From positions 1-52,764 of IMG/VR virus record IMGVR_UViG_3300032288_004603: a DNA stretch of 52,764 bases; one strand, given 5' to 3'. Origin of the DNA: a virus. Below the pieces are notes generated by a model, which saw nothing but the letters and a program-made list of their open reading frames with translations, was not told the DNA's origin and did no database searches. Shown in pieces: positions 34,724 through 51,177 of this stretch (its first letter is position 1; each line of letters starts with the position of its first letter). Position numbers and translations under genes: made by a program.

Positions 34724-35065
34724 TTATGCTTTACTAAAATAAATAATTTTTGGAAATTTACCGAATACGAATTTGGTTACATCACATAACCAAATATCCA
34801 AGTTAAATTCAAGACCCATATAGGATTCCATGTGGTAATAAGCACCTTCACCATGTTCTGGTGTTTCATGCAAGAAAATAAGCATCTCATAACCATCTTC
34901 TGGTTCTGTTAACATATATAATGTAACTTCACCTTCACCTTGCGCTAGTATGTCTAGCATGGTATCGGCACCCATAACCATTTCCAGGGCGGCTTTGGGG
35001 CCTTCCCATTCAGGAAGGTCCACATACCACTTATTATCTGGTTCTTTATAAAATTTAAGTTCCAT
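34724..35065 (-). CDS. DUF6717-like acidic protein, 113 aa
   Basis: The pattern MELKFYKEPDNKWYVDLPEW, a central MVMGADTMLDILAQGEGEVTL and a final LCDVTKFVFGKFP-IIYF match a small family I recall as DUF6717. Function unknown. The start overlaps the NAMPT stop, so it is the downstream partner in that operon. Confidence 0.6.
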   Translation of the reverse strand: MELKFYKEPDNKWYVDLPEWEGPKAALEMVMGADTMLDILAQGEGEVTLYMLTEPEDGYEMLIFLHETPEHGEGAYYHMESYMGLEFNLDIWLCDVTKFVFGKFPKIIYFSKA

Positions 35066-36603
35066 TATACTAGCTCTACTAATTTACCAAGTTTACCTCT
35101 GATTTCAGTTAAGGTTGTTGTGTTATAGAAATTACCATCTGAATAGATTGTTTTTAATTCACCAGTATTTTCACCTTCCCATGTGCACCTATCGATTAGA
35201 TAATAATCACCATCCACATCTTTTTTAACACATAGTAAACCAGTTGCTGATTTCTTTGTCCCATCATCAGTGATTGGGTCTTTGAAGATTTCTCTACCTT
35301 CAGGGTTGAAGTCACCATCAAACTTAGGTTTGTTAACTTCAACGTATGTCGCTTTCATTGCAAATCCGAAAGTATCTCTGGTATTGTATTGGTAAGTGAA
35401 TGAACCGATACCTAATACTACGTTTGTTGATGCAAATCCTTTTGCTTCTAATCTTCTACAGATTTCATCTGCTCTATCGATTGTGATTGAGTCACCGTAG
35501 ATTGCTCCGATGTGTGGGTCAATAACTTTGTAACCTTGTTCGTTGATTGTTCCACCGAATACATCCCAAAGCAATTCAACTACACCTTTGTATTTTGGGT
35601 GTGTTAAATCTAAATCAGCATTTTCGACAACATCTCTGTAATCACGAGATATAACTTGTTCACCACAAAGAATATCTACTGGGTCACCAGAGTCAGGACG
35701 AATAACCAATTTACCATCACGATTCATAATTTCTTCTTTCAAAGTAACTATGTGTTCAGTACATACTTTCCATAAGTCCCAAGTATCAGATACAACTGAT
35801 AGGATTCCAGTTGGGTATGTTTCCAATAATCTTCTGAATGTATCGATTTCATCTTCTTTACCACCAGCACACATAACTGAGTGTTCTGTTGCATTAACTG
35901 AACCAGCGATAAATCCAGTTTCACCATAGTATTTTCTTGCACCATAGATTGCTGGAAGAGAATCTGAACCAGAGAATGATGTTAGGTGACCAATACCAGA
36001 TGATACAGTTGCATCGATTGAATCCATACCTCTCATTGAGAAATCGTGACCTTGCCAGTCAATAAACCAACCTTTTTCAGCATCAGTTTTTTCTTGCCAT
36101 TTTGTTAATACCTTTCTGTAGTTATGTGCAATGGTTGCTGAAGTCATTGGTTTCCACAATAAGTTGGAAATGATTGTTTCCAAATAGTTGGTAATCCAAT
36201 AGAACTCTGGAATTGTGTTATAGATTGTAAGCACTGGAACCTTAGCTGGTACAACTGTACCTTCTTCGATTGCTTTAACTTTGATTGGTAGATAACCTAA
36301 ATCGTGTAATGCTTCAAAGTGTGACACATCGTAATCTGTGTTAAGATACATTGATAATTCACGTTTCATTTCACCACAAACAACTTCTTTTGGTTGTGAG
36401 AAGAAATCTCTATCGAAAGATTCGTGGATTATTTTCATAACCATTTGTTGTCCAAACGAAACGATTTCGTTGCAATGTTTTGGCGCATGTTTCAAGCTTC
36501 TTGGTGTGAAGTTTGAATAAACTAATGTTGTACCCTTTGGGTACATATTATGATGAGCCGTTTTATACCCATCAGTAAGTAATAAAGGATTTATGTTTTT
36601 CAT
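35065..36603 (-). CDS. nadV: Nicotinamide phosphoribosyltransferase (NAMPT/NadV family), 512 aa
   Basis: Canonical members make NMN from nicotinamide and PRPP. Seen here: NPLLLTDGYKTAHHNMYP at residues 4-21, HDFSMRG (186-192), NATEHSVM with the catalytic-type His at 241, and IRPDSGDP (301-308) for the phosphoribosyl site. Length is slightly above the family norm. In an operon with a PRPP-synthetase-like gene it could instead act as Namat in an NAD+ reconstitution pathway, joining ADPR-pyrophosphate to nicotinamide. No NMN adenylyltransferase is visible nearby. Which reaction it runs is inference. Confidence 0.9.
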   Translation of the reverse strand: MKNINPLLLTDGYKTAHHNMYPKGTTLVYSNFTPRSLKHAPKHCNEIVSFGQQMVMKIIHESFDRDFFSQPKEVVCGEMKRELSMYLNTDYDVSHFEALHDLGYLPIKVKAIEEGTVVPAKVPVLTIYNTIPEFYWITNYLETIISNLLWKPMTSATIAHNYRKVLTKWQEKTDAEKGWFIDWQGHDFSMRGMDSIDATVSSGIGHLTSFSGSDSLPAIYGARKYYGETGFIAGSVNATEHSVMCAGGKEDEIDTFRRLLETYPTGILSVVSDTWDLWKVCTEHIVTLKEEIMNRDGKLVIRPDSGDPVDILCGEQVISRDYRDVVENADLDLTHPKYKGVVELLWDVFGGTINEQGYKVIDPHIGAIYGDSITIDRADEICRRLEAKGFASTNVVLGIGSFTYQYNTRDTFGFAMKATYVEVNKPKFDGDFNPEGREIFKDPITDDGTKKSATGLLCVKKDVDGDYYLIDRCTWEGENTGELKTIYSDGNFYNTTTLTEIRGKLGKLVELV

Positions 36604-36616
36604 TTTTTATGTTTTT

Positions 36617-36685
36617 TTAAATAAACATATGGATATAATTAAAAGTCTTATAGCCATCCGTTAAAAGTAATGGATTGATTCTCAT
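36617..36685 (-). pseudogene. Remnant of a second NAMPT start
   Basis: The frame from ATG 36685 reads MRINPLLLTDGYKT then diverges and stops after 22 codons. Its first 14 residues match the true NAMPT start almost exactly, yet the codons differ at many synonymous positions (CCA/CCT, CTT/TTA, ACG/ACT, GGC/GGG). It is therefore the remnant of a different homolog, not a recent copy. Confidence 0.7.
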
Positions 36686-36690
36686 ATTAT

Positions 36691-36864
36691 TTATTTTTCT
36701 TTTTGGATTACCACTGCAAACTTACCATTAAGTTTTTCTGACCAACTGTGGCTACCTGATAGTGCCACATATTGTGCGGTTACTGAAACTACTTCCCAAC
36801 CTTCCTCTAACCAGTCGTTCACTTCTTCTTCAGATTCCACAATTAAAAATTTTTGTTCTTTCAT
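36691..36864 (-). CDS. Hypothetical small protein, 57 aa
   Basis: Start ATG 36864; longer readings run into the next gene. Short alpha/beta protein: FLIVESEEEVNDWLEEGWEVVS is typical of small proteins with a strand-helix-strand core. It lies inside the NAD/PRPP operon. Confidence 0.55.
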   Translation of the reverse strand: MKEQKFLIVESEEEVNDWLEEGWEVVSVTAQYVALSGSHSWSEKLNGKFAVVIQKEK

Positions 36865-36865
36865 A

Positions 36866-37348
36866 TTATTTATTTTCCACAAAGGTAGTAATAAAAAAGT
36901 TATCATGCAAGAGATTTTCAATATTTTCGTATAAAGGTATGTTAAATCTTTCGCAAACTATCTCAACATTACCTTTTCTCCAGAAACCTTCTGGGCAGCA
37001 AACCAATAATTTACCGCTTGAAGCATATAGACCCAACTCAAGTAACGATATTGGTGATTTTGAGTCTGGTAATAGGTATAAGATGATAATGTCTGATTTA
37101 TTTAAGGCATCCAATTCCCAATTAACTTGTTGGTAGAATTGTGGGTTTTCGATTCTTTGTTCCCAAGATGAATCCCATTCTTCACGTCTAGGATTTAGAA
37201 TAGTATAAGGTCTATCAGATAATGCTTCAGTGATTTTTGTTTGCCAATCTTCTGAATTACCCATTTCTATGGTACCAGCCAAAAATATTTTGAGGTGGTT
37301 TTTTCTACTGTTTTTGACAACAGAATGTGGTGGTTTAATTACGTTCAT
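36866..37348 (-). CDS. Nucleoside 2-deoxyribosyltransferase-like protein, about 160 aa
   Basis: IFLAGTIEMG near residue 20-30, the NPRREEWD segment, F-Y-Q-Q-V-N-W-E-L-D-A-L, SPISLLELGLYA with the catalytic-type Glu, and CCPEGFWRKGNVEIVC follow the pattern of the deoxyribosyltransferase-like (Nuc_deoxyri_tr3 type) family. Known relatives cleave or exchange nucleoside bases; the substrate here is unknown. ATG 37348 follows the upstream stop; ATG 37360 overlaps it. Placed between NAMPT and the PRPP-synthetase-like gene, so NAD-related chemistry is plausible. Confidence 0.75.
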   Translation of the reverse strand: MNVIKPPHSVVKNSRKNHLKIFLAGTIEMGNSEDWQTKITEALSDRPYTILNPRREEWDSSWEQRIENPQFYQQVNWELDALNKSDIIILYLLPDSKSPISLLELGLYASSGKLLVCCPEGFWRKGNVEIVCERFNIPLYENIENLLHDNFFITTFVENK

Positions 37349-37349
37349 A

Positions 37350-38249
37350 TTAGTATACATTTATTTGGGTTACATAATCATTTGTAACTGTATAATCTGA
37401 ATCCGATTCAACATTAATATCATATACGGAATTAGTACAATATATATGGTTTATGTGTTTATTTAATTCGTGAAAACCATTTGAAAATATACCGTGGGTA
37501 ATTGCTAACGATACTTTGGCTTGTGGTCTCATTTCGTGAATTGCTTTTGCAATTTCAATGAATGTTCTACCACCATCACAAATATCATCAACGATTAAGA
37601 AATTGTTATTTGTGTGTTCACCAGCTTTAAGTGGAACATAAGTACTCAATATCTTACCTGTTTCAATATCTCTATGTTTTGATGCGATTAAGATATCTTT
37701 TTTATAGTCTAATTTTTCAGCTAAATTATAAATTTTCTTAAGTGCCCCAGCATCTGGTGAGATTAATGTGAATGAATCAACAGCATTTTGCAAACTAATT
37801 TGATTTTGTTTTGTTAAAGCAATTTTAATAAACCAAGAGTTATCCACAACTTCAAGATTATTTATACATGCTGCCGCAACATCACTGTGTGCATCAATAC
37901 AAGTTACTGTAGTGTAATTTTGTGCATTTAATATTGGTGCTATAACATCTCTCAAATAGGATGTACCACCTTCAAGAAATTTTCTATCACTTCTTGCACC
38001 CAAAATATATGGAATGTACAAGTGAATTTTTTCAACTTTTAAATTTCTAAGTGCCTTTGTTGCACATATTATTAACTCAAAATCTTTAAAATTATTGAAA
38101 CTTGACTTGATTATGACCTCATTAACTGGTTTTACAGGTGTAACTGCACCCATTTTTGTTATGGTAACATCTTGTTGACCATCTGGGAATTTTGATATTT
38201 TGTATTTAATATCACTAGACTCCTGGTAAACTAAATTTAATTCTAACAT
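37350..38249 (-). CDS. prs: PRPP synthetase-like protein, 299 aa
   Basis: Ribose-phosphate pyrophosphokinase fold: LGARSDRKFLEGGTSYLRD (residues 83-101), CIDAHSD (117-123, in place of the usual DLH), SPDAGALKK (164-172), ASKHRD (189-194) and the phosphoribosyl loop IVDDICDGGRT (219-229). It is slightly shorter than host enzymes and diverged at the N-terminus. It supplies PRPP for NAMPT in the canonical view, or in NARP1-type pathways acts as Adps, pyrophosphorylating ADP-ribose. Confidence 0.85.
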   Translation of the reverse strand: MLELNLVYQESSDIKYKISKFPDGQQDVTITKMGAVTPVKPVNEVIIKSSFNNFKDFELIICATKALRNLKVEKIHLYIPYILGARSDRKFLEGGTSYLRDVIAPILNAQNYTTVTCIDAHSDVAAACINNLEVVDNSWFIKIALTKQNQISLQNAVDSFTLISPDAGALKKIYNLAEKLDYKKDILIASKHRDIETGKILSTYVPLKAGEHTNNNFLIVDDICDGGRTFIEIAKAIHEMRPQAKVSLAITHGIFSNGFHELNKHINHIYCTNSVYDINVESDSDYTVTNDYVTQINVY

Positions 38250-38252
38250 AAT

Positions 38253-38480
38253 TTATTTATTATTTTCTATATTATTGGGAAATGTGTGGAATTCTAATGA
38301 ATCCAAATCTATTTTATCTTCTTTAAATCGGTTATGCCTTTTTACCGTGGTATTAATAGCTTGGTTTGTTTTATTAATTATTTTGGTTGTCAATTCATTT
38401 AAGGTGTATTCATTATCAATAGTAAATTCTGATAATGACACCTTTATGGTTATTGTTTTATATTTTCTTTTAAACATCAT
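38253..38480 (-). CDS. Hypothetical basic protein, 75 aa
   Basis: Start ATG 38480 (or 38477) overlaps the stop of the membrane-protein gene upstream. Basic, Thr/Lys/Asn-rich, no family recognised. Part of the same minus-strand operon. Confidence 0.55.
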   Translation of the reverse strand: MMFKRKYKTITIKVSLSEFTIDNEYTLNELTTKIINKTNQAINTTVKRHNRFKEDKIDLDSLEFHTFPNNIENNK

Positions 38481-38664
38481 CAGTAGCTTTAAATGAAACG
38501 GAAAGTATAAAAAGTTCAAAAAATACTAATATTATTCTACCAACTGCATTATTAATTAACCACCAATTTGATGGATTTAAGTCAAAAGCAATGAATGAAC
38601 CTATTAAGTACCAAAATAAGTTACCAGCTAAAAACCACAATAATAATTTACCAAAAAACCCCAT
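38470..38664 (-). CDS. Two-helix membrane protein, 64 aa
   Basis: Two hydrophobic stretches (FGKLLLWFLAGNLFWYLIGSF and AVGRIILVFFELFILSVSF). No family recognised. Three bases separate it from the HAD gene upstream. Confidence 0.6.
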   Translation of the reverse strand: MGFFGKLLLWFLAGNLFWYLIGSFIAFDLNPSNWWLINNAVGRIILVFFELFILSVSFKATDDV

Positions 38665-38667
38665 AGT

Positions 38668-39015
38668 TTATTTTTTATAAAGTAATACACCACAACAATT
38701 ATCTAAGTTTTGGTTGATTAACTCAATTTCTAATTCATCATCATCAAAATGTATATCAAAATTATATAATGATTTCCATTTATCTTCACCTTCTGTAAAT
38801 TTAATTCTATCAACTGGTATTCCAACCTGTTCAGCGATTTCAAATAGAAACTCATTTTGGGTGATAATCCATGGCCAACCTTTGGACCTACCATGTTCAG
38901 ATGATAATCTGGATGTTGTAATCCAAACTTCATGACCAGCATCTATAAATTTTTTGGCTAACTTTTGGTTTTTTTCTTCTGATAAGGTTGAATCAAAGTC
39001 AAATGATATTTTCAT
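38668..39015 (-). CDS. HAD-like phosphatase, 115 aa
   Basis: FDFDSTLSE near the N-terminus provides the DxDxT nucleophile (D6, D8), and WITTSRLSSEH (about residues 31-41) fits motif II (Thr). FDIHFDDDELE near residue 90 fits the acidic motif III. Small, capless HAD member of the kind often annotated as a phage 5'-nucleotidase-like enzyme. The start overlaps the stop of the gene upstream. Confidence 0.75.
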   Translation of the reverse strand: MKISFDFDSTLSEEKNQKLAKKFIDAGHEVWITTSRLSSEHGRSKGWPWIITQNEFLFEIAEQVGIPVDRIKFTEGEDKWKSLYNFDIHFDDDELEIELINQNLDNCCGVLLYKK

Positions 39016-39269
39016 AAACGATTTGCGATTACTTTAATAATTTCTTCTTCTTCATTTGTTAACCTATGGCGTGATTTTCCTAGTTTAAATAAAGCTTCCA
39101 AAAACATTTCATCATGTATGGATTTTGCATCATCTTGAACTACGATTATATCGTTTAAATAACCATCCTCCTTTAATACTTCAATAAGTTCAGTTATTTC
39201 ACGTTCTGAACATGCATCAACAAAATCACTTGGTGATATATCCAAGTCATCAACATAAAAATCTGGCAT
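39012..39269 (-). CDS. Hypothetical acidic protein, 85 aa
   Basis: Start ATG 39269, chosen because the box TATATTTG (complement of 39289-39296) lies upstream; the longer frame crosses into the divergent gene. Acidic and helical. It opens the operon that includes the HAD and NAD/PRPP genes. Confidence 0.6.
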   Translation of the reverse strand: MPDFYVDDLDISPSDFVDACSEREITELIEVLKEDGYLNDIIVVQDDAKSIHDEMFLEALFKLGKSRHRLTNEEEEIIKVIANRL

Positions 39270-39386: not shown

Positions 39387-40547
39387 ATGAGTGAAAAAGT
39401 TGTTTATAAAGAATTGTATTCTTACCAACCACAATCGGTTGACACATTATTTAAGATTTACGAAAAAAGTAAATTTAATGCTAGGGTATATTTTATGAAT
39501 GAAAATCCATCAATATTTCATAAAACCAGATTGGGCATTTTTGAGGAACCAAATGGTGATTTTAGTATTGTATATTTTAGAAGAAATTATGGTATAAGTA
39601 AAACTAGTAAAATGTATAATAGAGAATCTAGGGTATTTTCTATTATAAAAAAGGGTAATAAATTCTATTTTAAAAATAGATTGGGTATTAAACCATTAAT
39701 TCATAACCATTTAAAAAATTGTGAACATTATAAGCTTATTGTATCTGAAATGGTTAGCAAATTACCATGGTTGAGATATTTGACTGAACATGATGTTATA
39801 TCGTCAGTTTCATTTAACACAATATATAGTAAGAAAATATTTTCATTGGATAAGGCATTAAAGTATCAGTATAAACTACCATCACCAGCCGCAAAATTGC
39901 TACATGGGTTAAAAAATTACAGTCACCAAGCTAATTATTTGAGATATTATATTGAATATTTGGTTAATATTGAGAACTTACATAACACATTACCCACTTA
40001 TGATTTTGGTATTTTCTATGATACAGTAAAAATGGCAAAAACATTGGATAGGAAGGTTAATTGTTCTTGGTCAGCAAGAAGATTAAAGGAAGAACATGAT
40101 GAATGGTCAAAAGAAATAACTGATATTGTATTTACTGAAGGTGATAGGTTAATGTCTATTAATGATATATTTGTTAGATTTGCGGATAGTAGCGGTTTTA
40201 AATTATTAAGAACCACTAAGGAAATGAATATTGAAGGTAGGAAAAATGACCATTGTGTTGCAACATATGTTAATAAAGTTGACAATGGTAGTTGTGGTAT
40301 TTATAGTATTAATGGTTATACTTTAGAATTAAACACAAAATGGGTTAATAATCACACTAGTTTGACGTTGATGATTGTGCAATTCAGAGGTTATAAGAAT
40401 TGTAATGCACCTAAAGAATTATATGATATGGTAAAAATGGAATTATACAAATTTAATGGTGTGGAAGTACATGTTAAACAAGAATTTAGTGATATTTTTG
40501 AACTTGGGTTTGAATTACCAGGTGATTTATTAAATGACCCATTTTAA
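39387..40547 (+). CDS. PcfJ-like protein, 386 aa
   Basis: RRLKEEHDEWSKEI near residue 230, LRTTKEMNIEGRKNDHCVATYVNKVDNGSCGIYSI (about 272-306) and LMIVQFRGYKNCNAPKE match the PcfJ-like family on plasmids and phages. Biochemical role is unclear. Box TATCTTTG 39359-39366, then a longer AT-rich leader. Confidence 0.75.
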   Translation: MSEKVVYKELYSYQPQSVDTLFKIYEKSKFNARVYFMNENPSIFHKTRLGIFEEPNGDFSIVYFRRNYGISKTSKMYNRESRVFSIIKKGNKFYFKNRLGIKPLIHNHLKNCEHYKLIVSEMVSKLPWLRYLTEHDVISSVSFNTIYSKKIFSLDKALKYQYKLPSPAAKLLHGLKNYSHQANYLRYYIEYLVNIENLHNTLPTYDFGIFYDTVKMAKTLDRKVNCSWSARRLKEEHDEWSKEITDIVFTEGDRLMSINDIFVRFADSSGFKLLRTTKEMNIEGRKNDHCVATYVNKVDNGSCGIYSINGYTLELNTKWVNNHTSLTLMIVQFRGYKNCNAPKELYDMVKMELYKFNGVEVHVKQEFSDIFELGFELPGDLLNDPF

Positions 40548-45883: not shown

Positions 45884-45891
45884 TAACTTTG
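45884..45891 (+). promoter_or_regulatory. TAACTTTG promoter deciding the LRR start
   Basis: TAACTTTG overlaps the TTG at 45889, which therefore cannot be the start. GTG 45907 is the first in-frame start after it. Confidence 0.6.
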
Positions 45892-45906
45892 ATAAAATTA
45901 ATAATT

Positions 45907-47298
45907 GTGGCGTTAAATATAACCGAGCGTTTAAAATTTCTATTAACCAAATTTAATGTTTTTGATGAGACTTTTTTATTGTCAAAAACAAAGAAACTGG
46001 AAGGTGATGGGTATGATGTATCAAGGATATTATCACATGATGATGATTGTTTGGCCATTGTTTCAAAAAAGGAAGAAAATGGTAAATTAAGGACTGAGAT
46101 TAATATCTCTAAAACTGTGTTTGATTTAATGGTTGACTCTGACCCAGCACCAAATAAAATGTATACACAATGGATGCTAACCACATTTAATAGGATGTTA
46201 AAGGAAGATAATTACACAAACGCCATTAGATTCGCATCTGAGGATTTACCATTAGCTAGTAATTATTTGATTATTTTTGAATCTAATAAACGAAAACAAA
46301 AATTTAAAGAATTATGTGCTAGTAGTTTTATATTAAAAGATATTAATGACCCAACAGATATAAATCAATATAAATCATTAAGTCAATTATTTGATGCTGT
46401 TGACCCATTTATCGTTAAAGATTCATCTGAAATTGAAAGTCTATTATATAGATTTGTTGATTCAAAACAAGCTGAGATTGGTGTTAGGGATAGGAAATTT
46501 ACAGTTTATATACCTTTAACTAGGGATGCGAGTGTTGTATTTGATTCATTTGCTAACTGGTGCACATGTAAAGAAGGTAATGGTATGTTTCAACATTATA
46601 CCACAAATTATAAAACACCAATTGGTAGGAAATCAAAAATTTATATAATTATAAATAACGAATTTTTTAATGGTGTTATTAATGATGATACATTATTTCA
46701 AATTCATTTTGAATCAAACCAAATAAAGAATAGGAAAAATACCCATTCAAATGTTAGTATTTATGATTCATTATCATCAAGTGAAAATGTGTTAAATTTT
46801 TTCCACGATGAATTAATTAATTTATCTAAAGAGTTTAGAAATTTAAATAAAAACTTATATTTGGATAACTTAATAAAATTTGGATTTAGTGATAGTTTAT
46901 TTGAAGTTATTGAAGAAACTACACCGATGATAATATTTAAAGATAAAGAAGTACCAAAAATGGGAGATTTGACTAGATTTAATAATTTACAAACTTTTGA
47001 GATGAATAATACTAAGTTAATTAATATTCACCCATCAGTGTGTAATTTAAATAATTTAGAGGTTATGGTGTTAAGGGATAACAGAATAACCACCTTACCA
47101 AATGAAATTGGTAATTTAAAAAATTTAATATTTATGAATATTTTGGGTAATAAAATTGTTGATATACCTGAGACTATTAAATATCTGGATAAATCGAACG
47201 GGGGAAATCTTCATAGATTGGCGGTTAGTCAAAAAGATATTGGGGAAGATAATTATAAAAAATTGAAAAGGTTGTTACCAAATACAATTTTAAATTAA
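45907..47298 (+). CDS. Leucine-rich-repeat protein, 463 aa
   Basis: GTG 45907 is the likely start. The N-terminal 330 residues form a soluble domain with ANWCTCKEGNGMFQHYT around residue 215-230, typical of a phage family whose function is unknown to me. The C-terminus has four LRRs (LQTFEMNNTKLINI, LEVMVLRDNRITTLP and two others, about 355-430). LRRs usually bind protein partners. Terminator at 47298-47325. Confidence 0.7.
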   Translation: MALNITERLKFLLTKFNVFDETFLLSKTKKLEGDGYDVSRILSHDDDCLAIVSKKEENGKLRTEINISKTVFDLMVDSDPAPNKMYTQWMLTTFNRMLKEDNYTNAIRFASEDLPLASNYLIIFESNKRKQKFKELCASSFILKDINDPTDINQYKSLSQLFDAVDPFIVKDSSEIESLLYRFVDSKQAEIGVRDRKFTVYIPLTRDASVVFDSFANWCTCKEGNGMFQHYTTNYKTPIGRKSKIYIIINNEFFNGVINDDTLFQIHFESNQIKNRKNTHSNVSIYDSLSSSENVLNFFHDELINLSKEFRNLNKNLYLDNLIKFGFSDSLFEVIEETTPMIIFKDKEVPKMGDLTRFNNLQTFEMNNTKLINIHPSVCNLNNLEVMVLRDNRITTLPNEIGNLKNLIFMNILGNKIVDIPETIKYLDKSNGGNLHRLAVSQKDIGEDNYKKLKRLLPNTILN

Positions 47299-48230: not shown

Positions 48231-48617
48231 TTAGATATTTAACAGTTTGTTTCTTAATAAATTCTTTATAATTTTTTTAGACTCTGATAATTGGTTTATT
48301 TTAGGCCATCTAATCATAGTATCCATATATTCATAACTCTTATGAACACCTTTATTCATTTTAAAACCAAATCTTTTATAGAATTGAACTAATCTGTTTT
48401 TATTGCCACCAAAATCACCAGAAGGTGTTAATGTGATAATTTTTTTATTTTTGTCAGCGTAATTAATTAAGTCATTCATTATATCAGTACCGACACCACC
48501 ACCCCTAAATTCAGGATTAATTATAATTCTAGACAATTTTAAGCTTTTACCATCTTCATAAATGTCCAAACCGATTAATTCATCTTTATATTTATCTTCT
48601 AAAGTTTTTTCAATCAT
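48231..48617 (-). CDS. GNAT acetyltransferase with C-terminal tag, 128 aa
   Basis: IIINPEFRGGGVGTDIMNDLI (residues about 32-52) contains the R-G-G-G-V-G acetyl-CoA loop, and LVQFYKRFGFKMNKG is the typical late motif. So it is an acetyl-CoA-dependent N-acetyltransferase, target unknown. The C-terminus ends SESKKIIKNLLRNKLL, resembling the N-terminal tags of other proteins here. Start ATG 48617 lies 4 bases from ATATTTAT. Confidence 0.8.
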   Translation of the reverse strand: MIEKTLEDKYKDELIGLDIYEDGKSLKLSRIIINPEFRGGGVGTDIMNDLINYADKNKKIITLTPSGDFGGNKNRLVQFYKRFGFKMNKGVHKSYEYMDTMIRWPKINQLSESKKIIKNLLRNKLLNI

Positions 48618-48621
48618 ATTA

Positions 48622-48629
48622 ATAAATAT
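48622..48629 (-). promoter_or_regulatory. ATATTTAT element, 4 bases before ATG
   Basis: Minus-strand ATATTTAT-TAAT-ATG upstream of the acetyltransferase, right behind the terminator of the Clp gene. Confidence 0.55.
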
Positions 48630-48633
48630 AAAA

Positions 48634-48653
48634 AAACCCACTAATGTGGGTTT
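48634..48653. terminator. Terminator between Clp and acetyltransferase genes
   Basis: AAACCCAC/GTGGGTTT (48634-48641 with 48646-48653) with T-runs on both sides. Confidence 0.8.
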
Positions 48654-48657
48654 TATT

Positions 48658-51177
48658 TTATTTTGATTTTTCGCTTTTTAAAACTATTTCATTTTTTGTT
48701 TTATCAAATGTGACATTTATAGTTTCACCTTCTTTTATATTACCACTTAATATTTCATCCGCAATTGGGTCTTCAATGTATCTTTGAATTGCTCTATTTA
48801 ATGGTCTGGCACCGTATGCTTCATCATATCCATTTTTTGCAACGTATTCAATCGCAGATTTTTGTATTTTCATATCATAACCCATTTCTTTAACTCTATC
48901 TTTTAATTTATCAAGTTCATTGTAGATTATTTTATGTATATCTTCTTCTTTTAAACTATTAAACACAATAATTTCATCAATTCGGTTTAAGAATTCTGGT
49001 TTAAATTTCTTTTTAAGTGCTTTTTCAATTATTGACCTTGTTCTTTCTTCTTCATTGGCGATTACAGCATCAGTTTGGAATCCCATTGATTTACCAAAAC
49101 TACTTAATTCTTTAGCACCAACATTAGATGTTAGGATTATTAATGAATTTTTAAAGTTTATTTTTCTACCAAAACTATCAGTCAATTGCCCCTCATCTAA
49201 AACTTGTAATAATATATTAAATACATCATCATGGGCTTTTTCAATTTCATCAAATAATACAACTGAATATGGTTTTCTTCTAATTTTTTCAGTTAATTGA
49301 CCACCTTGTTCAAAACCAACGTAACCTGGAGGGGAACCAATTAATTTTGATACTGAATGTTTTTCCATAAATTCACTCATATCAACTCTAATAAGTGATT
49401 CTGAATCACCAAATATTTCATCAGTTAATAATTTAGTTAAATGCGTTTTACCAACACCAGTTGGTCCTAAGAATATAAACGAACCAATTGGTTTATTTCT
49501 GTTTCTTATACCAAGTCTATTTCTTTTGATTGCTTTAATAACTTTTAACACAGCATCATCTTGACCAATAACTTTACCCATTAAGGTTTTGTCCATAGCC
49601 ATTAATCTTTTGTTTTCTTGTGATGAAATTTTACTTAGTGGGATACCAGTCATCATAGATACTGTTTCAGCAATTAAATCAACATCAACTGTAGTTTTCT
49701 TTTTATCTAATGAATCTAACCAATTTTTTTTAGCTTTATCAAGTTCTTCATTTAATTTTCTTTCTTCATCTCTTAATTCAGCAGCTTCTTCATATTTTTG
49801 TTTTTGGACAACTTCTAATTTTCGTTTAAGAATTTCTTCTTTTTTAAGTTCCAATTTTTTTATGTTTTCTGGTAATTCGTGTGATGTGTTTGTGCTAGCA
49901 CCAGCTTCATCTAATACATCAATAGCCTTATCTGGCATTGCTCTATCAGTTATATATCTGTCAGCCATTTTAACACATTCTTCGATTGCTTCATCAGTAT
50001 AACTAACTCTATGATATTTTTCATATTTTTCTTTAATATTATTTAATATCATTTTTGTTTCTTCAGATGTGGTTGCTTCAACTAATACTTGTTGGAATCT
50101 TCTGGTTAAAGCACCATCTTTTTCAATATGCTCTCTAAATTCATCTAATGTTGTTGCACCGATTACTTGTATTTCACCTCTAGCTAATGCTGGTTTAAAT
50201 ATATTTGATGCATCTAATGAACCAGAAGCATTACCAGCACCAATAAACGTATGTAATTCATCAATGAATAAAATAATATCAGTATTCGCTTTTAATTCAT
50301 CCAATATTGCTTTTATTCTTTCTTCAAATTGACCTCTATATTTGGTACCAGCAACAACTGATGCCAAATCCAATGAATATATTTTTTTATCTATTAAAGT
50401 TCTTGGTGCTGAACCACTTTTTATTAATAAAGCAATACCTTCAGCAATACTACTTTTACCAACACCAGCTTCACCTATTAATACTGGGTTGTTCTTTTTT
50501 CTTCTAGATAAAATCTGAACAACTCTTTTTATTTCTTTTGACCTACCAATAACTGGGTCAATTTTATTTTCATCAACTAATTTAGTTATATCTGTGCAAA
50601 AATTATCTAATACTGGTGTTTTGCTCGGTGTGTTTCTTTTTGATTTTTTATCTTTTTTATCTTCACCTGGTCCAGAATAATCAAAATCATCATCCTCTGA
50701 TGAATTTTTAACTTGGTCTAACATATCTCTCATATTTTTTACCGTTTTAACAAACTTTTCGTAAGTAAGATTATATTCTTTATTTAAAAGTTTTTTTATT
50801 GTTATTTTATTATTACTATTTAAGATAGCCATCATTATATGTGTGGTATCAATATGGTTATCACCCATATTTTCTGACTCATGGTCAACCGAATTAAATA
50901 ATTTTCTACTTTCTTTACTAAATGGTACACTTACTTTGGTACCTTTTTGTAATTTTGGTATTAAATCAGTGTTATTTAAAGACAAATAAAGATTATCATT
51001 TAATTCACTAAGATTTACACCTAAATTTTTAAGTGCATCAGTACACCCATTATTATTGTCCGCTATTATTGATATTATTAAATGCTCTGGTTTAACCTGA
51101 GCATCACCCATTTCTCTAGCTTCTTTAACCGCCTCACCAATTATAATCTTAAGTTTTGGTATGATTTCTCTATTCAT
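48658..51177 (-). CDS. clpC: ClpC-like AAA+ unfoldase, 839 aa
   Basis: Double-AAA+ Clp ATPase. The N-domain repeats lie at about 5-145. The first AAA has Walker A GEAGVGKS (235-242), Walker B ILFIDE (302-307). A UVR-like QKYEEAAELRDEER (460-473) marks ClpC rather than ClpB. The second AAA has GPTGVGKT (571-578), VVLFDEIEKAH (639-649) and SMGFQ (697-701), whose MGF aligns with the ClpP-docking loop. It is full-length, so it could act with host ClpP, or replace a host ClpC on phage-chosen substrates. No clpP gene is seen in the window. Confidence 0.93.
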   Translation of the reverse strand: MNREIIPKLKIIIGEAVKEAREMGDAQVKPEHLIISIIADNNNGCTDALKNLGVNLSELNDNLYLSLNNTDLIPKLQKGTKVSVPFSKESRKLFNSVDHESENMGDNHIDTTHIMMAILNSNNKITIKKLLNKEYNLTYEKFVKTVKNMRDMLDQVKNSSEDDDFDYSGPGEDKKDKKSKRNTPSKTPVLDNFCTDITKLVDENKIDPVIGRSKEIKRVVQILSRRKKNNPVLIGEAGVGKSSIAEGIALLIKSGSAPRTLIDKKIYSLDLASVVAGTKYRGQFEERIKAILDELKANTDIILFIDELHTFIGAGNASGSLDASNIFKPALARGEIQVIGATTLDEFREHIEKDGALTRRFQQVLVEATTSEETKMILNNIKEKYEKYHRVSYTDEAIEECVKMADRYITDRAMPDKAIDVLDEAGASTNTSHELPENIKKLELKKEEILKRKLEVVQKQKYEEAAELRDEERKLNEELDKAKKNWLDSLDKKKTTVDVDLIAETVSMMTGIPLSKISSQENKRLMAMDKTLMGKVIGQDDAVLKVIKAIKRNRLGIRNRNKPIGSFIFLGPTGVGKTHLTKLLTDEIFGDSESLIRVDMSEFMEKHSVSKLIGSPPGYVGFEQGGQLTEKIRRKPYSVVLFDEIEKAHDDVFNILLQVLDEGQLTDSFGRKINFKNSLIILTSNVGAKELSSFGKSMGFQTDAVIANEEERTRSIIEKALKKKFKPEFLNRIDEIIVFNSLKEEDIHKIIYNELDKLKDRVKEMGYDMKIQKSAIEYVAKNGYDEAYGARPLNRAIQRYIEDPIADEILSGNIKEGETINVTFDKTKNEIVLKSEKSK

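Follow-up and report, generated by a model that had tools for sequence, protein, structure and literature searches.

A probable NARP1 operon in a phage fragment of likely Bacteroidota origin, with a recurrent third gene predicted to encode a ribose-specific glycosidase

Introduction

NARP1 (NAD+ reconstitution pathway 1), the enzyme pair Adps and Namat, is known from Bacillus phage SPbetaL1 and coliphage Bas63, according to a 2024 report cited in PMC12774641. In mycobacteriophage DyoEdafos the NARP1 operon also holds RyDEP, which turns 2'/3'cADPR into ADP-ribose (ADPR) for NARP1 (preprint; PMC13232231). Here we describe a related locus in IMG/VR record IMGVR_UViG_3300032288_004603. The window analysed is the entire record, 52,764 bases, which is a 52.8-kb fragment and not a full phage genome. 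We read the genes on its minus strand between 39269 and 34724, with a probability of roughly 0.55, as the NARP1 operon of a Bacteroidota phage carrying a recurrent third gene, whose product would be a ribose-specific glycosidase acting on an ADPR derivative.

The locus resembles those of SPbetaL1 and Bas63 in having both enzymes with their motifs and NAD+ contacts, in the adjacency of the two genes with Adps upstream of Namat, and in its phage setting. It differs in that a gene of family PF15891 lies between the two enzymes, in its small open reading frames (ORFs) and DUF6717 gene, and in belonging to what is probably a Bacteroidota phage; the SPbetaL1 locus has no adjoining third gene. A survey of NAD+/ADPR gene networks in phages (Iyer et al. 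2022; PMC9503650) shares the Macro, NADAR, Nudix, NadM and NadV neighbourhoods, but it predates NARP1, names no DrHyd proteins in viruses other than the ARC type and has no PF15891 gene with NAD+ synthesis. In the open-access literature searched, no paper joins a nucleoside 2-deoxyribosyltransferase with NARP1. NARP1 itself is therefore already known, and what is new here is the locus variant with a recurrent third gene, probably an unreported counter-defence part.

Namat and Adps

A first-pass annotation, made from the sequence letters, had placed NAMPT/NadV-like, deoxyribosyltransferase-like and Prs-like genes together on the minus strand, and all three are present exactly where it put them. 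The NAMPT-like gene (35065-36603) is, on its sequence, a Namat. Its product matches PF04095 (E=2e-35), PF18127 and PHROG 448 (E=6e-191), and residues 400-410 read GSFTYQYNTRD. This fits exactly the published signature GSX-phi-X-phi-X-phi-TRD, which separates Namat, using ADPR-pyrophosphate (ADPR-PP), from Nampt, using phosphoribosyl pyrophosphate (PRPP), and whose aromatic residues stack on adenine (PMC12774641); aromatics stand at signature positions 3 and 7, as the rule has it. The canonical Nampt motif GG[AG]LLQxx.RD is absent from the window protein. The protein is 54% identical to the crystallised and biochemically validated SPbetaL1 Namat and has the same NAD+-contact residue at 18 of 20 positions, the changes being R40K and A362S. 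SPbetaL1 R40 corresponds to K38 in the window protein, followed by H39, and this pair fits a published variant of the clamp loop in which, after a Lys, the following residue stacks on adenine (PMC12774641). The best PDB matches are 9w5x and 9w5w (E=1e-154), with human NAMPT far behind (1e-58). All Namat-motif proteins, including that of the window, fall on one side of the tree (99 by the SH-like approximate likelihood ratio test, SH-aLRT) and canonical-motif Nampts on the other, and the nearest cellular relatives are from Flavobacteriaceae. We infer that the enzyme joins ADPR-PP to nicotinamide (NAM) to give NAD+.

The product of the Prs-like gene (37350-38249, minus strand) matches PHROG 619 (E=3e-65), and the cellular Prs N-domain PF13793 is weak in it (17 bits, below the cut-off of 25). 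The earlier remark that it has IDAHSD instead of a DLH motif was correct and informative: motif 1 of the window protein, DAHSDV, resembles EPHSDV of the validated SPbetaL1 Adps, whereas canonical Prs has DLHA[DEG]Q. Motif 2 is SPDAGALKK in the window, FPDAGAAKR in SPbetaL1 Adps and SPDxGGxxR in cellular Prs. In the tree the window protein and SPbetaL1 Adps belong to one Adps-type group, and the division between this group and cellular Prs has 100/100 support; the relatives were collected via Namat and PF15891 neighbours (a single-protein scan gave only 4 loci), and the tree leaves out L291 (a wrongly picked ORF, branch 5.08) and L293 (a long row). Neither the canonical PRPP synthetase motifs nor a grouping with cellular Prs was found for the window protein, which is predicted to convert ADPR to ADPR-PP.

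No NMN (nicotinamide mononucleotide) adenylyltransferase had been visible at first pass, and no domain of that type (PF01467) occurs in the window fragment, nor in a relative of 253,879 bases that likewise has its PF15891 gene between adps and namat, or in a 187-kb relative. We have little doubt, from the sequences, that the operon is a NARP1 system rather than one for NMN salvage. The likeness to NARP1 drawn in the first-pass annotation, for which phylogenies had been proposed as a check, is borne out by the Namat signature, the 18/20 contacts, the Adps motifs and the agreement of both trees, each of which sets the window protein apart from its canonical counterpart.

In Tenacibaculum ovolyticum (G007:C8; loci L228 and L326) the Adps frame has two internal stops (TGA, TAG) and adjoins an intact Namat; this NARP1 appears from its sequence to be decaying or frameshifted.

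Fold and active site of the third protein

The gene between the two enzymes (36866-37360, minus strand) encodes a protein labelled nucleoside 2-deoxyribosyltransferase-like. It matches the profile PF15891 (Nuc_deoxyri_tr2; E=2e-37, 128 bits, cut-off 30), and its PF05014 score is under the cut-off. The AlphaFold2 model has a pLDDT of 91. Its closest solved relative is 4mcj (Z 21.7, 43% identity), a structural genomics entry for the cellular protein BDI_0649 of Parabacteroides distasonis, which belongs to the same family and is listed with its function uncharacterised. A sequence search of the PDB with the third-protein profile reached only 4mcj, a single nanobody match being due to chance. The next nearest folds are YtoQ, DNPH1, MilB and the nucleoside deoxyribosyltransferases (NDTs; Z 9-13.5), followed by SPARTA TIR domains (Z about 8-9). 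The protein shares with the CMP N-glycosidase MilB, DNPH1 and the NDTs the fold (Z 9-12) and the catalytic Glu, and with MilB a Phe at the ribose-selecting position, but identity is only 12-18% and the gene context of the window protein is one of NAD/ADPR.

Residues F26, W39, W81 and E108 are invariant in 185 of 185 family sequences, and the motifs NPRR, WDxSW and GFWRKGN are near-invariant. E108 is the Glu nucleophile expected of PF05014 enzymes. The aligned ranges of four structures put F26 on DNPH1 Y24, MilB F17, CtNDT Y7 and BpNDT Y5, a correspondence taken from the start and end points of the structural alignments with an assumed gap-free first strand and not from a residue-level alignment. 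The catalytic-site Tyr of the deoxy-specific enzymes (Y7/Y24) is thus absent from all 185 sequences. In MilB the Phe at this place (F17) lets ribose be accepted, and the mutant F17Y returns to deoxyribose (PMC10603095); BpNDT Y5F gains ribonucleoside use (PMC12645435); and NADase TIR domains have Phe or Ala at the same position (PMC11204291). Because Phe replaces Tyr in all of these sequences, the deoxyribosyltransferase label is probably wrong, and the third protein is probably a ribose-specific N-glycosidase, as judged from its sequence and modelled fold. The first-pass annotation had suggested a deoxyribosyltransferase-like enzyme as an added member of the system: the added member does recur across phages and bacteria, but the chemistry implied by its name is, given Phe26, probably not the right one.

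Linkage of the third gene to Namat

IMG/VR loci were gathered with Namat as the seed, irrespective of a PF15891 gene, and near-copies were then removed. Namat has a PF15891 gene no more than 5 kb away in 52 of 80 loci, 40 of 63 non-redundant loci and 22 of 35 loci with full flanks; the other genes in the 63 non-redundant loci include Adps (50), Macro (17) and NADAR (6). Both members of the PF15891/Namat pair are on the same strand in 42 of 42 cases, with gaps from -1 nt and in six gene orders. That linkage is kept while gene order varies suggests that selection holds the genes together, and not common descent alone. Seeding in reverse, 48 of 77 PF15891 loci have, in the flanks retrieved, a gene of the Namat/Nampt or the Adps/Prs family. 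PF15891 relatives are rare (43 of 50,697 phage records), and all 11 complete PF15891-bearing phages examined (Caulobacter, Brevundimonas, Xanthomonas, Stenotrophomonas, Lak, Alishewanella, Erythrobacter and Tunturiibacter) encode a NAMPT-family protein, though not adjacent. The base rate for that family is 3.8% of phage records overall, and 22-33% in medium and jumbo phages (PMC9503650).

Among 296 Bacteroidota genomes, 14 have a Namat, always with GSFTYQYNTRD, and 5 have PF15891; all 5 are within the 14, with both genes linked on one contig. Canonical Nampt occurs in 8 of the 296 genomes, none of which carries PF15891. With the centre genome removed the co-occurrence is 4/4 (p=2e-6, genome relatedness not corrected). 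In a weakly resolved tree of 94 family members the linked and unlinked genes are interspersed, with 14 changes over all labels.

The 14 bacterial Namat loci are operons which include Adps (12), KptA (11), NrtR (10), NADAR (10) and PF15891 (5), as well as Macro, ADP-ribosylglycohydrolase (ARG) and DUF4291 genes. It is established that KptA sets free a cyclic-phosphorylated form of ADPR and that NADAR, Macro and ARG work on adducts of ADPR (PMC9503650). Chromosomal NARP1 genes of Bacteroidota lie in NrtR-regulated operons (L188-L192, L194, L200, L201, L203, L206, L210, L211, L221; L260-L273) with NADAR, KptA, Macro, ADP-ribosylglycohydrolase, DUF4291 and metallophosphoesterase genes, apparently ADP-ribose recycling operons.

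A second phage arrangement combines PF15891 with Macro, a canonical Nampt (GGALLQQVDRD) and NadM-Nudix, without Adps. Such NARP2-like loci are L132, L136, L166 and L170, the first three of which also have a radical SAM gene. The input common to both arrangements is NAM and, via Nudix, ADPR. NAD+ can be made from ADPR and NAM in each of them, directly in NARP1 or via Nudix, ribose-5-phosphate and PRPP in the canonical-Nampt loci, and an ADPR-yielding enzyme therefore fits both.

In Tunturiibacter phage Tunturi_5 (L011:3989-7777) PF15891 forms the N-terminus of a 1262-aa protein annotated as MutT/NUDIX, encoded next to the portal gene; this may be a packaged polyvalent NAD/ADPR enzyme.

Proposed mechanism

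Host defences of the TIR, SIR2 or SEFIR type would remove NAD+. Adps would then phosphorylate ADPR to ADPR-PP, and Namat would join this to NAM, restoring NAD+ in two steps in all. The PF15891 protein, as a member of the TIR/DRHyd superfamily and a retaining N-glycosidase specific for ribose, would cut a host-made ADPR derivative: a cyclic signal, one conjugated to a base or amino acid, or another adduct. Cleavage would destroy the ADPR signal, and the freed ADPR would enter Adps or, in NARP2-like loci, the Nudix and PRPP routes. Sequence, structure and gene context speak for the chemistry class, the preference for ribose and the membership of the pathway; the exact substrate is a guess.

Release of ADPR is proposed by analogy, because RyDEP in a NARP1 operon acts likewise. 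The two have in common an extra gene inside the operon and the proposed outcome, a destroyed signal and ADPR for NARP1. They differ in that RyDEP is a helical, inverting glycosidase of the RyR R12 type (PF02026), whereas the window protein is Rossmann-like and expected to be retaining; none of the ORFs tested in the operon region matched PF02026. On present evidence the third gene is likely to be a functional part of NAD+/ADPR counter-defence. That its product is specifically an ADPR-releasing glycosidase is a tentative proposal, to which we give somewhat less than even odds.

Several observations weigh against these proposals. About one-third of Namat loci, like that of SPbetaL1, are without the third gene, which is therefore not essential to NARP1. 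Conversely, no NARP1 gene is near in about one-third of the viral loci seeded with PF15891 or in 27 of 43 loci from bacteria, and 15 of 16 tested unlinked bacterial genomes have no NAMPT-family match at all, so that the family has other settings. It also occurs with canonical Nampt and so is not strictly tied to Adps. The co-occurrence p-values ignore the kinship of the genomes. With regard to the active site, LlNDT Y7F/D72N was no better at using ribonucleosides (PMC11647913), and the conserved pocket might just as well be one for a plain ribonucleotide.

Alternative explanations

The third gene might encode an ordinary nucleotide-pool enzyme, splitting (d)NMPs into base and (deoxy)ribose-5-phosphate, which is merely co-transcribed and leaves NARP1 unchanged. 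MilB and DNPH1 are the closest characterised folds, nucleotide enzymes are common in phages, and several bacterial carriers are without NARP1. However, the strong and repeated linkage is to Namat/Nampt, NADAR, Macro, ARG and KptA and not to nucleotide metabolism, the only closely related solved structure, 4mcj, has no characterised function either, and the unlinked bacterial genes have no other conserved neighbourhood beyond one genus and anti-sense shadow ORFs. We regard this explanation as unlikely, although it is the best of the alternatives to an ADPR-directed glycosidase.

It is improbable that the protein is a sponge or sensor of an ADPR-based signal without useful catalysis. The theme of the operon would be the same, and some RyDEP homologues are of the sponge type (PMC13232231), but the invariance of the catalytic E108, along with F26, W39 and W81, argues for catalysis. 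Slightly more doubtful still is a role in supplying or exchanging NAM, by base exchange or by its release from dead-end NAD derivatives. Such a role would account for the pairing with both Namat and canonical Nampt, of which NAM is the common substrate, and transglycosylation is possible in NDT relatives; release of NAM from NAD+ would, however, undo the pathway, and neighbours that process ADPR (NADAR, Macro, ARG) point to a role on the ADPR side.

Canonical salvage, in which a PRPP synthetase and NadV make NMN for an NMN adenylyltransferase of the host or elsewhere in the phage (NARP2-like), finds some room in the fragmentary record and in the NCBIfam, Pfam and PHROG names, which read Prs and NAPRT/NAMPT, but it is very improbable and was rejected on the Namat signature and contacts, the Adps motifs and both trees, with NARP2-like loci that have a homologous third gene showing GGALLQQVDRD and NadM-Nudix instead.

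Operon structure and host

At least eight minus-strand genes, packed with overlaps or tiny gaps, run from 39269 down to 34724, which is compatible with a single operon. The first, p39 (39012-39269, ATG at 39269), encodes a small function-unassigned protein without a Pfam match and has homologues in 11 loci, NARP1 loci among them. It shares an ATGA (39015-39012) with the HAD-like gene (38668-39015), a small ORF that owes its name to a DFDST motif only, because no Pfam or NCBIfam family matched it. The HAD enzyme noted at first pass is thus present as an ORF, but it occurs in 2 of 63 non-redundant Namat loci, is restricted to the nearest contigs and was rejected as a core NARP1 part. Two small proteins follow: a membrane-like one (38470-38664) with homologues in close relatives only, and another (38253-38477) which, among the scanned loci, has no homologue beyond the window's own record.

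The Adps and PF15891 genes overlap by 11 nt, and 1 nt separates the latter from a small ORF (36691-36864, ATG at 36864) that encodes a 57-aa protein with homologues in 11 loci, mostly alongside NARP1. Just upstream of the intact Namat is MRINPLLLTDGYKTF (36685-36641, minus strand), the fossil of another Namat gene's 5' end, with a stop soon after. The fossil is closest to the Namat 5' end of locus L017 (37/45 identical, as against 30/45 for the real Namat start), and recombination therefore appears to have duplicated or replaced Namat, the fossil being the apparent scar. The last gene, DUF6717 (PF20475, 34724-35065), has its ATG where Namat stops, at 35065. A gene of the NARP1 set lies within 6 kb of DUF6717 in 8 of 79 loci, and its membership of NARP1 was mostly rejected.

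A Bacteroidota-type -7 promoter element, TATATTTG (39296-39289, minus strand), lies just upstream of the first ATG, and a terminator-like hairpin (34639-34617) follows the last gene. The pattern TAnnTTTG is enriched across the window (187 occurrences against 105 +/- 11 in shuffles; 0/100 shuffles), and a sigma-70 promoter scan gave no excess. This enrichment and the Flavobacteriaceae affinity of Namat suggest that the host is probably a member of the Bacteroidota.

Other features of the window

Divergent from the operon is a gene for a PcfJ-like protein (39387-40547, plus strand; PF14284). Over the long stretch from 7000 to 31500 short genes follow one another on the plus strand, many with TATCTTTG upstream; such arrays, in which small genes have promoters of their own, are typical of the early or accessory regions of phages. 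The 469-aa product of a gene at 45889-47298 (plus strand) has leucine-rich repeats in its C-terminal region, which is unusual for a phage. A complete ClpA/B/C-type AAA+ unfoldase (PHROG 4871) is encoded at 48658-51177 (minus strand), with a GNAT acetyltransferase gene downstream (48231-48641).

Significance

NARP1 works broadly against NAD+-depleting immunity, and its descriptions so far comprise only two core genes. A recurrent third gene of a defined superfamily, with a substrate prediction that turns on one residue, is directly testable. As a more speculative extension, NARP1-linked PF15891 proteins may represent a new class of ADP-ribosyl N-glycosidases which destroy ADPR immune signals or adducts and recycle the ADPR to NAD+, and the same module in NrtR-controlled operons of some Bacteroidota may be a cellular relation of the phage pathway or the origin of it. 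If the third protein does cut an immune signal, it would provide a second, independently evolved route, beside RyDEP, from alarm molecule to NAD+.

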